In this document: piece by piece, positions 32,925 to 36,583 of the stretch
How the letters are laid out: each line of letters opens with the position of its first letter
Numbering within the stretch: the stretch's first letter is position 1
NCBI RefSeq assembly: GCF_003713065.1
Contig: NZ_CP033433.1
Location: 4,985,501-5,049,500 of the forward strand
Reading direction: 5' to 3'
DNA length: 64,000 nucleotides
Origin: Cohnella candidum
GTDB lineage: Bacteria; Bacillota; Bacilli; Paenibacillales; Paenibacillaceae
Translations under genes and position numbers: made by a program
The notes under the pieces: model-generated
Seen by the model: only the letters and a program-made list of their open reading frames with translations
Databases searched by the model: none
Told to the model about the DNA's origin: nothing

Positions 32925-33155
32925 AATGAAGTTCTTTAGGGGAACATGTTTGTTTTTTTAAGGTGCTCTGAAAATGTCGAGATTGGTAGAAATAGTGCTT
33001 ACATATATTTATATCGGTTGTTTCGAGTTTATTTATCAGGGATAAAAGGGCTTTGCGGGACTTGTTTTTTTCAAGAGGGTGGCTGAACATGGGTGGTAGA
33101 TTTGAGGGAAGCGGGTATGAACGGATTAGTATTCAATAGGAGAGGAAGTAGGCGG

Positions 33156-33953
33156 ATGACGACGTTGGTCCGGCATGTGATCGAGTGGATTGAAGGGGCT
33201 GTCGGCTTGGCGGAAAACACGGTAGATGGGTTGAAGTTTGGCCGGCCGGACATGACCGTTACGGGAATTGCCGTGGCGTTTACGGCTTCGCAATCGGTGG
33301 TGGAAGCCGCGTTGCGAGCCGGTGCTAACCTGTTGATCTCGCACGAAGGGGAGTTTTACGCGCATCGCGACCGTGTTGAGACGTTGGAAGGCGATGACCT
33401 GGTAGTATTGGAGAAACGCGGTTTGATCGCGCAGTCGGGACTCGCCTTGTATCGCTGCCACGACGCGTTGCACTACCGGCAACCCGACGAGATTATTCAG
33501 GGGCTCGTTCGCAGGTTGGGATGGGAGGCGTATTTGCGGGAGGATCTGCAGGTTGCGGTGATTCTGGAAATGCCGGAGACGACGGTGGGCGAGTTGGCGG
33601 AGCATTGCAAACGGGCGCTGGGTTTGCCATATTTGCGCGTGGCTGGCGATTTAGCGATGAAATGCACCCGCATCGGGCTGTCGGCCGGCTACCGGGGCGG
33701 CGGCGAGCTGTGCATCCCGATGTTCCGGGAGCATGATCTTGACATGATCATCACCGGCGAAGGACCGGAATGGGAGACGCCGGAATACGTCCGCGACGCG
33801 ATGCGGCAAGGCCGGAAGAAGGCGCTGATCCTGCTCGGTCACGCCGAAAGCGAGCAGCCCGGCATGCAGCTGCTGGCCGAGAGCTTGAAGCGCGCCTTCC
33901 CGGCAACGCCCATACAGTTCATTGCGGAAGAGCCGGTGTTCCGGATCGTATGA
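33156..33953 (+). CDS. Nif3-like dinuclear metal centre protein
   Basis: The 265-residue protein belongs to the NIF3/YbgI/YqfO family, whose hexamers bind two metal ions per subunit. Putative metal-site segments are GANLLISHEGEFY near residue 60 and ILLGHAESEQPGM near 235; the first usually reads HHP in relatives, so the site may be altered. Function is not settled for the family. The ATG at 33156 follows AGGAGAGGAAG; upstream in-frame starts lack a ribosome site. It is divergent from the importer operon. Confidence 0.8.
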   Translation: MTTLVRHVIEWIEGAVGLAENTVDGLKFGRPDMTVTGIAVAFTASQSVVEAALRAGANLLISHEGEFYAHRDRVETLEGDDLVVLEKRGLIAQSGLALYRCHDALHYRQPDEIIQGLVRRLGWEAYLREDLQVAVILEMPETTVGELAEHCKRALGLPYLRVAGDLAMKCTRIGLSAGYRGGGELCIPMFREHDLDMIITGEGPEWETPEYVRDAMRQGRKKALILLGHAESEQPGMQLLAESLKRAFPATPIQFIAEEPVFRIV

Positions 33954-33968: not shown

Positions 33969-34381
33969 TGCAACGTTAAAAAGTAGCGCTATTAAGCCAC
34001 CGAGCGAACAGAGTTTCGCTGCAACGTTATAAACTAACGCTGGATTGCCTGAAGCTTCGCCTAAGCTCGGTGCAACGCTAAAAATTAGCGCTAGAGCGGT
34101 TTAAACTCTCTCCAACCTCGGTGTAACGCTAGATATTAGCGTTAAACAGTCGCCGTAACCGGGAAAAACCGGTTAGAAGGCTTCAAACCTCCTATTGTAG
34201 TCATTGTAACCCGGAAAAACCCGGTTAGAACGCCGCAAACCTCGCCCACGGCCACTGTAACCGGGAAAAACCCGGTTAGAACTCTTCAAACCCGGCTCGC
34301 TGTTGCTGTAACCCGGAAAAACCCGGTTAGAACGCGGCAAACCCGGCCCGCTGCCACTGTAACCGGGAAAAATCCGGTTAC
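33969..34381. repeat. Intergenic array of nine palindromic units, 51-bp period
   Basis: Units start at 33969, 34020, 34071, 34122, 34154, 34205, 34256, 34307 and 34358. Every step is 51 bp except one of 32. Each unit begins TG(T/C)AAC and holds a palindrome around an A-rich loop, then about 29 variable bases. Units 1-4 use CGTTA- or CGCTA-type arms; units 5-9 use TAACC(G/C)GG-type arms. Arms change together (CGTTA/TAACG in unit 2, CGCTA/TAGCG in unit 3, TAACCGGG/CCCGGTTA in unit 7), so pairing appears to be maintained. Units 5-8 also share GAANNCNNCAAACC after the palindrome. No open reading frame runs through it. It fills most of the 578-bp gap between the Nif3-like and GH67 genes. Confidence 0.92.
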
Positions 34382-34531
34382 AGCAAATTTAGTTTTACCA
34401 AGACTCGCTACTCTCCCCAGCGCCAAACATATAAGTTTTTCAAAGTAACGCCTTTCGTTTGTTTGTTTTTTTCGCTTTACCGATCCCGTAGGCTAATAGG
34501 AAGAGCCGCATTACGGGAGGTTGACAGCGCG

Positions 34532-36583
34532 ATGAATCCGGTTTCGACGGACAGCGGCTATGCTTGTTGGCTGCGTTACGAATACATTGAAAACGCTTCC
34601 CTGCGTGAAAGTTACTTATCAAGCTGTTCGTGTTACTCCCTTCTGGGAGATTCCTTCATCCTCATGAACGCCCGGAAGCAACTGGCCGAGGCGTTATCCT
34701 CCATGCTCGGGAGAGTGCCGACGGAGAGCGACACAGGCGGCATTATCGCCGGAACGATCGACAGTTCGACCGAACTACGGCAAATAACCGCTCAATATGA
34801 TTTCGATGAGCTGGGTGAAGAGGGCTACGTCATCCACTCAGAGACGGAGGGGCCGATTTACCTGGCCGCCGCCTCCGACAAGGGTGTTCTTTACGCGGTC
34901 TTTCATTTACTGAGGTTGCTCCAACTGGGAGCCAACGTCCGCAATATCCACATCGGCGAAAAACCGGCAAACGCGCTGCGCATGATCAACCACTGGGACA
35001 ACATGGACGGTTCCGTCGAGCGGGGATATGCGGGGCGGAGCATTTTTTACCGCGATAACGGCTTCATACCGCACACGGATCGCCTCGAAGACTATGCGCG
35101 GCTGCTCGCTTCCGTGGGCATCAACGCGATAACGATTAACAATGTGAACGTTCATCCGCGGGAAACGGAGCTGATCACGGCTGGGCTTCTTCCCGATGTT
35201 GCAAAAGTCGCAGATCTCTTCCGCGGCTACGGCATCCGGCTGTATTTGAGCATCAATTTCGCTGCGCCCATCGAGATCGGAGGACTGGAGACGGCCGATC
35301 CGCTGGACCCCAACGTCGCCGCTTGGTGGCGGGATAAGGCAAAGGAAATCTACGATTACGTGCCGGACTTCGGCGGCTTTCTGGTCAAAGCCGACTCCGA
35401 GTTCCGGCCGGGCCCGTTCACCTACGGCAGAAACCACGCGGACGGCGCCAATATGCTGGCGGACGCGTTAGCACCGTACGGCGGCGAGGTCATTTGGCGC
35501 TGCTTCGTCTACAACTGCCTGCAGGACTGGCGCGATCGCTCGACGGATCGGGCCAAAGCCGCATATGACCATTTTAAGCCGCTCGACGGACAATTCCGGG
35601 ATAACGTGTTGCTGCAGATCAAAAACGGGCCGATGGACTTCCAGGTCCGGGAGCCCGTATCCCCGCTATTCGGCGGGTTGAAGGCAACCAGCACTCTACT
35701 GGAAGTGCAGATCGCGCAGGAATATACCGGCCAGCAGAGGCACCTCTGCTATCTCGTTCCGCAGTGGAAGGAAGTGCTCGATTTCGATACGTTCGCCCGC
35801 GGCGAGGGTTCATCCGTAGCTAAAGCCGCGAGCGGAGCATTGTTCGGCAGAAGCCGCGGCGGCATGGCCGCCGTATCCAATGTGGGGGACGACGCCAACT
35901 GGACCGGTCACCTGCTCGCTCAGGCGAATTTGTACGGGTATGGCAGGCTGGCCTGGAGCCCGGCACTAGGCGCCGATGAAATCGCCAAAGAATGGATCAT
36001 GCAGACTTTCGGCCGCGACCTCACGATAATCAATATCATCCAAAACATGCTCCTCAGCTCTCTGGAAATCTACGAATCTTACACGGCACCGCTCGGCGTC
36101 GGCTGGATGGTCAATCCCCATCACCATTACGGCCCGAACGTCGACGGCTACGAATATTCCAAGTGGGGCACCTACCATTTCGCGGATCACGAGGGAATCG
36201 GCGTCGACCGCACCGCGGGCACCGGTACCGGATATGCCTCACAGTACCATCCGCCCCAATCCGCCAGATACGAATCGCTCGCCGATTGCCCGGATGAGCT
36301 GCTGCTGTTCTTCCACCATGTACCGTACACGCATGTGCTGAAGTCCGGCAAAACCGTCATCCAGCATATTTACGACTCCCATTTCGAGGGAGCGGAACAG
36401 GCTGCCGATCTGCTCGCCCAGTGGAATTCTCTCGAAGGCCGGATCGACGAAGGGTGCTTCCGCCAAGTGCGCGAGCGGCTCATCCACCAGGAGGAGCACG
36501 CCCGGGAATGGCGCGACGTCATCAACACCTACTTCTACCGCAAATCCGGCATTCCCGACGAACGGAGCCGCAAGATTTACTAG
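34532..36583 (+). CDS. GH67 alpha-glucuronidase
   Basis: The 683-residue intracellular enzyme (no signal peptide) removes 4-O-methylglucuronic acid from short xylo-oligosaccharides (aldouronic acids). Family segments include [33 protein letters not shown] and [37 protein letters not shown], which hold the catalytic acids. The ATG at 34532 has GGGAGG 11 bases upstream. The downstream GH52 gene suggests complete intracellular breakdown of glucuronoxylan fragments. Length is normal for the family. Confidence 0.95.

Follow-up and report, generated by a model that had tools for sequence, protein, structure and literature searches.

The window analysed here is a stretch of 64,000 nucleotides from the genome of Cohnella candidum (G000 among our genomes; 5.29 Mb in a single contig). 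Nine palindromic units span positions 33971-34380 of the window and occupy an intergenic region that is flanked upstream by a DUF34/NIF3 gene and downstream by a gene of the GH67 glycosidase family (Table 1). The distance from the NIF3 stop codon to the first unit is 17 bp.

Table 1. Features at the array locus, in window coordinates
Feature	Position	Strand	Description
DUF34/NIF3 gene, upstream flank	33093..33953	+	Pfam PF01784, E 1.6e-22; start position provisional
Starts of units 1-9	33971, 34022, 34073, 34124, 34156, 34207, 34258, 34309, 34360		Intervals 51, 51, 51, 32, 51, 51, 51, 51 bp
Block a	33971..34155	+	Units 1-4, type TAACGCTA/TAGCGTTA, interval 51 bp, own lag-51 self-match 37.5 (33971-34144)
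Block a cores	33971-33991, 34022-34042, 34073-34093, 34124-34144	+	CAACGTTAAAAAGTAGCGCTA to TAACGCTAGATATTAGCGTTA
Seam of the two arrays	34145..34156	.	11-bp spacer on unit 4, giving the sole 32-bp interval
Block b	34156..34380	+	Units 5-9, type TAACCGGG/CCCGGTTA, interval 51 bp, own lag-51 self-match 84.7
Block b cores	34156-34175, 34207-34227, 34258-34278, 34309-34329, 34360-34380	+	TAACCGGGAAAAACCCGGTTA type
GH67 glycosidase family gene, downstream flank	34532..36583	+	Pfam PF07488/PF07477/PF03648; ATG at 34532 within ORF 34463-36583

The window array and its two blocks

The original prediction described nine units at an exact 51-bp period. The units and the period stand, and the count needs correction: seven of the eight intervals between successive units are 51 bp long, instead of eight of nine. 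At a lag of 51 the array has a self-match of 105.8, compared to a maximum of 14.7 in 150 dinucleotide-preserving shuffles of the identical 450 bp, for which the best value over all lags from 12 to 130 was taken. This rules out a chance origin of the period. Tandem Repeats Finder, run on the window, reports period 51 for units 5-9. No ORF of at least 80 aa spans the array, which is also not flagged as an open frame, and for the window array we therefore reject the reading as a coding repeat.

The alignment splits into units 1-4, with inner arms of the GCTA/TAGC type, and units 5-9, with inner arms of the CGGG/CCCG type, and the 32-bp interval lies between the two groups. The locus is therefore more aptly described as two adjoining arrays, each with its own palindrome, than as the single nine-unit array of covarying palindromes that had been proposed. 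The core of block b also occurs elsewhere in G000, where its pattern, allowing up to three mismatches, gives 10 matches compared to 2 for the reversed control. Pairs of this core spaced by 51 bp lie at 3.92 and 3.95 Mb on the minus strand, with 1-2 mismatches to the pattern, and at both of these sites there are adjoining rows of other palindromes at roughly equal pitch. At positions 166-991 the window also contains three 279-bp direct repeats, 92% alike, which at a guess probably encode repeated domains on the minus strand.

The period and the placement of arrays in Cohnella

The sampled Cohnella stretches hold 73 distinct arrays (84 array calls, which overlap in places) with many different sequences, all at periods of 50-52 bp and 55 of them at 51. 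The original prediction had proposed a search of this and related genomes for the 51-bp spacing, and we find it at many other sites, not in the window only. A scan of the sampled stretches, including some that were picked for hits, for tandem repeats of any period from 12 to 130 gives 120 repeats: 63 at 51, 18 at 52, 3 at 50, and 36 others, which fall on 27 different periods (none represented more than twice), among them single ones at 42, 45, 57, 61 and 64. A histogram of hairpin-to-hairpin distances, for hairpins of any kind, shows a weak rise at 51-52, the signal being weak because many arrays have imperfect hairpins or none. Open frames are flagged over 26 of the 84 array calls; a 51-bp period keeps the frame, and we take these to be due to chance.

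Among stretches picked blind to hits, arrays occur in 17 of 43 from G023 (24 arrays, 860 kb), in 3 of 25 from G000 (4 arrays, 500 kb) and in 2 of 6 from G009 (2 arrays, 120 kb). The corresponding 120 kb of G015, which belongs to the same genus, contain none (0 of 6 stretches). A query with another G000 array finds matches in 6 of 60 genomes (G000, G003, G010, G013, G018 and G023), all within the genus, and no match in 23 genomes of other genera. Outside the genus, no array is present in a thin sample of 80 kb from two genomes. Among 80 named 8-kb loci around GH67 genes, Paenibacillus montanisoli and Cohnella sp. SGD-V74 each have one array of period 51 or 52, and these are the only two.

The spacing of units is narrowly distributed. 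A length of 50-52 bp is found for 719 of the 729 intervals inside arrays (498 at 51, 186 at 52 and 35 at 50), the remainder being 53 (five), 49 (two) and 56, 59 and 103 bp (one each); in this tally some units are counted twice, and seams between unlike blocks, such as the 32 bp of the window, lie outside it. As the period is about five helical turns, the original prediction placed bound proteins on one face of the DNA. However, intervals near 41 or 62 bp, which would keep the helical face, are absent from the 729, and repeats with periods of 42 and 61 are represented by single cases among the 120. Helical phase alone is therefore rejected, and absolute length seems to be held rather than phase only.

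Placement and strand counts rely on gene calls made with a simple longest-ORF script. Of 62 array-bearing gaps, 42 have tandem, 16 convergent and 4 divergent flanking genes; for 587 gaps that lack arrays and are 120 bp or longer, the respective counts are 347, 97 and 143. Arrays are rare in divergent gaps (4/62 versus 143/587; Fisher p = 0.0007 for convergent versus divergent) and lie away from these promoter regions. In the 42 tandem gaps the median distance is 110 bp from the upstream stop versus 162 bp to the next start (Wilcoxon p = 0.002, calculated without an intergenic background).

Four of 29 other NIF3 loci contain a 51- or 52-bp array, located after NIF3 in L262, L263 and L250 and before it in L260. 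Given about one array per 36 kb in G023, this association is not clearly above chance. The arrays in L262 (2354-2908, G011) and L263 (2334-2662, G020) are unrelated and lie just 3' of the NIF3 orthologue, 67 and 47 bp past its stop, respectively, and the array in L250 (2571-3083, G027), also unrelated in sequence, lies 326 bp past the NIF3 stop. A similar post-NIF3 array is seen in Paenibacillus montanisoli (L159, 7568-7870), where the end of NIF3 was placed by eye, and the array of L263 is also that of L166 (Cohnella sp. SGD-V74). Four Paenibacillus genomes have tandem repeats of another size class, 123-128 bp, directly 3' of the GH67 match (L160 5256-5533, L163 5090-5337, L220 5085-5527 and L226 5089-5403), which comprise two seemingly unrelated sequences.

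Core, spacer and arm pairing

In families that occur at many loci, a unit consists of a core of about 24 bp that is common to the loci and a remainder that mostly is not. The families were drawn by hand from similarity clusters plus look-alikes from other genomes. Identities are pairwise means; half of the arrays served to choose the core, and the values come from the held-out half. Between arrays, core and spacer identities are 0.81 versus 0.42 in family e (16 arrays in all), 0.83 versus 0.45 in family d (15 arrays in all) and 0.79 versus 0.51 in family g (6 arrays in all), in a one-reference alignment that favours the best-matching part of the unit. Family f (7 arrays in all) is an exception, with 0.83 versus 0.76, and its spacer is nearly as conserved as the core. 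Within an array, the spacer changes by just 15-17% in families d, e, f and g. It is mostly local and recurs in register.

Array pairs that exceed 99.5% of the null number 44 of 190 in G000 (about 1 expected), 84 of 528 in G023 (about 3 expected) and 21 of 660 between the two genomes. The sampled arrays form five core-family clusters in G023 and four in G000, and family g includes related cores at both 51 and 52 bp. A fixed orientation to replication is rejected as a general rule, since family e in G000 and family f in G023 mix orientations. Family d cores of G023 with an A-rich loop (those of L065-L067 included) may lean with the direction of replication, as 15 of 22 arrays or single sites do, a count that covers 18 among the matches listed and four further arrays; the origin near coordinate 1 and the terminus near 3.6-3.85 Mb were taken from GC skews.

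The core is often an imperfect palindrome. Compared to 60 shuffles per array call, the hairpin potential of the consensus unit is raised in 36 of the 84 calls (p ≤ 0.05) and not in the other 48, so that the palindrome is common, but it is the period that arrays follow as a rule. In 18 of 23 hairpin arrays, stem positions are less variable than those of the spacer (p = 0.011), and the window array, with its mixed consensus, is one of the five contrary ones. The symmetric protein site that had been suggested for the palindromes still appears to be the best-supported reading at the level of sequence, because the core, often dyad-like, is common to loci whose spacers differ. Between the arrays of L108 and L114 (G023, family i), the core by eye is apparently flipped relative to its spacer, with the half-sites TAGTGAAC/TAGAGAAC swapped and a mid-stem mismatch retained. 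In L093 (7230-7740, G010), the repetition extends to 204-bp blocks made up of four 51-bp units each, and multi-unit duplications therefore occur.

The original prediction further held that the arms differ between units yet stay complementary, and saw in this selection for base pairing. Pairing in the window is indeed above that of shuffles, with 90.5% of stem cells paired versus 69.8% (eight distinct rows of nine units), but 13 of the 15 cells that are changed on both sides separate block a from block b, as judged by eye from the alignment. There are only two compensated changes inside block a (pairs 1-21 and 6-16) and none inside block b, where a C/C mismatch stands uncompensated in units 6 and 8. 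In 32 hairpin arrays, 248 stem changes are one-sided, 14 are two-sided and keep a Watson-Crick pair, and 25 are two-sided without a pair; seven of the 14 compensated cells come from window rows that were out of register in the script. The automatic consensus of the window mixed both blocks, which makes the window rows unreliable in the hairpin, stem-change and conservation counts.

G-T mismatches are tolerated in RNA. On the sense strand, as defined by flanking tandem genes, there are 30 G-T versus 51 C-A mismatches, and hence no G-T excess. The predominance of one-sided over compensated cells across the 32 arrays leads us to reject RNA covariation as a general feature, and these comparisons give no general support for selection for base pairing. 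Inverted loop forms (AAAAT, ATTTT and AATTT) are present inside a single array. Template switching between the arms would produce such loops, and the likeness of the arms may be partly mutational.

Known repeat systems and explanations for the fixed length

The accessible part of a paper by Subirana and Messeguer (PMC8161180) describes 52-nt (51-53) tandem repeats in Bacillus with constant size and variable sequence, which are non-coding, species-specific and particularly abundant in Paenibacillus, with several families per genome. Arrays of one genome have short sequences in common, often together with their reverse in the same repeat. The class is delimited in that text by a length of 51-53 nt, at least four repeats, and identical length (±1) in at least 60% of the repeats. 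Its authors draw a parallel between CRISPR and the constant and variable parts, and suggest that polymerising proteins or small RNAs are involved; the 52-nt repeats of B. coagulans are reported, in the accessible parts of two papers, to be transcribed (PMC8161180, PMC8625621). The window array belongs to this class: 7 of its 8 intervals are 51 bp, and the proportion of intervals at 50-52 bp across arrays is that given above; several families of unrelated sequence are present per genome (four clusters in G000 and five in G023); short sequences are common to the arrays of one genome; and the window array is non-coding.

Whether the family had already been described, a point on which the original prediction was unsure, can thus be answered in that the class is on record for Bacillus and Paenibacillus in what we have of PMC8161180. 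The Cohnella arrays differ from the class as set out there in their main length, which is 51 and not 52. Relative to the accessible part of that paper, the core-versus-spacer identity between and within arrays, the pair-by-pair RNA-folding test and the count of flanking-gene orientations are new. Literature searches found nothing on palindromic intergenic repeats in Paenibacillus, and on later work on the 52-nt class nothing beyond PMC8161180. For intergenic tandem repeats in Cohnella they gave a single paper, which concerns Ginkgo endophytes.

Like CRISPR, the Cohnella arrays have a palindromic repeat and a spacer in a regular row. Unlike CRISPR, their spacers repeat within the array and there are many arrays per genome. 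Cas1 is found in none of the 7 genomes searched, and with spacers that are not unique CRISPR is rejected. REP/BIME elements, which are associated with a RAYT transposase, are dispersed intergenic palindromes located after gene ends. The Cohnella arrays are likewise dispersed intergenic palindromes 3' of genes, but they are tandem at a fixed pitch. Y1_Tnp (PF01797) has no match in G000, G023, G009, G010, G018 or G003, and has a match in 12 of 37 genomes of the genus, including the array-bearing G013. A REP/RAYT system is rejected because neither G000 nor G023 has a Y1 transposase, although G013 has one. Quasipalindrome correction by template switching, according to the accessible parts of PMC8604942 and PMC8794818, brings the two arms of an inverted repeat into agreement and inverts the loop between them. 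The Cohnella arrays, too, have inverted loops; as far as those accounts go, such correction accounts for arm complementarity but not for the 51-bp pitch.

The best explanation of the window is that its two blocks, which abut, both belong to a family of arrays scattered over intergenic sites, with a pitch of 51 bp (50-52) and free sequence. We favour the reading of these arrays as fixed-pitch rows of symmetric DNA sites recognised by a putative protein, to which we assign a probability of roughly 0.4, with a selfish or neutral repeat, its length set by the machinery behind its duplication, as a close second. Each unit would combine a core of about 24 bp that is recognised, and is often imperfectly palindromic, with a largely locus-specific spacer. 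The core would be the binding site of a putative dimeric DNA-binding protein, or perhaps of a few such proteins, as there are several core families per genome, and the protein may assemble along the DNA, a dimer taking up each 51 bp. Arrays would grow and homogenise by tandem duplication of whole 51-bp units, and off-pitch units would be lost because the assembly breaks. The complementarity of the arms and the flipping of the loop (AAAA/TTTT/AATT) could partly reflect template switches from one arm to the other during replication, instead of selection for pairing. Candidate roles of the assembly are nucleoid organisation and insulation at gene ends. Several observations count against the protein reading: more than half of the array calls (48/84) are without a hairpin, the spacer of family f is nearly as conserved as its core, and to serve all the core clusters (five in G023, four in G000), either several proteins or a very relaxed one would be required. 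The arrays also seem dispensable, since G015 has none in 120 kb.

A selfish or neutral minisatellite is a plausible though likewise tentative explanation. Here, a putative replication, repair or recombination step would duplicate about 51 bp beside a hairpin-prone core, and the length would be the footprint of an enzyme, the arrays having no function for the cell. Such a process would give a length that is fixed in absolute bp whatever the sequence, and the higher-order duplication of 204 bp (4 × 51) in L093 fits it, as do the local spacers, which are expected if flanking DNA is co-duplicated with the core. The lack of arrays in 120 kb of G015, the location away from divergent promoter gaps and the loop inversions within arrays are also in its favour. 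It is less easily reconciled with the conservation of the core, but not of the spacer, from locus to locus, because a purely local mutational process would need the core itself to be moved, or with the 48 of 84 array calls that lack a significant hairpin.

Two further explanations carry much less weight. That the arrays act as transcribed RNA, in the form of stem-loop rows serving as small RNAs, protein sponges or 3' end protection, seems improbable from their sequences. The mid-stem pair of family d, counted by hand in 73 units from nine G023 arrays, is a G-T on the T-loop strand in 24 units, which RNA could tolerate, but 37 units have no standard pair there and 12 a Watson-Crick one. The preference of arrays in the 42 tandem gaps for gene 3' ends, the start of the window array so close to the NIF3 stop and the transcription reported for B. 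coagulans would all suit an RNA. Against this, stem changes are mainly one-sided, the ratio of G-T to C-A on the sense strand is the reverse of that expected from RNA selection, and the cores are oriented both ways relative to tandem flanking genes (sense versus antisense, 6 versus 2 in family e, 4 versus 5 in d, 3 versus 3 in f and 3 versus 2 in g). Rfam gives no match for the window array at E ≤ 1, and a known Rfam family is rejected. Least probable is a single ancestral repeat per genome whose sequence drifts and whose length is kept because units of other lengths cannot homogenise, that is, phylogenetic inertia without constraint. Arrays are related beyond chance within and between G000 and G023, and family g has both 51 and 52 among its related cores, as common descent would have it. 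However, the period of 50-52 is kept in the sampled array-bearing genomes while the spacers of families d, e and g have lost most of their similarity, 51-53 is also the rule in Bacillus according to the accessible part of PMC8161180, and single-base drift should have spread the periods further.

A bolder reading is a DNA "ruler", a rather doubtful proposal in which a putative protein system would recognise a few dyad cores and polymerise along the DNA, or duplicate it, in absolute steps of 51 bp. If this is true, arrays of almost any spacer would be built and kept at a 51-bp pitch at many intergenic sites. The novelty is modest, since the class is already known; why its length is constant despite changing sequence is a question posed, in the part accessible to us, by the 2021 paper on the 52-nt repeats (PMC8161180). 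The contrast between a conserved core and a free spacer of fixed length names the part to be recognised apart from the part that is only measured, and this measurement makes the question of the fixed length more testable. If a protein or enzyme does measure 51 bp, its activity would be of a new kind, one that organises or duplicates DNA.
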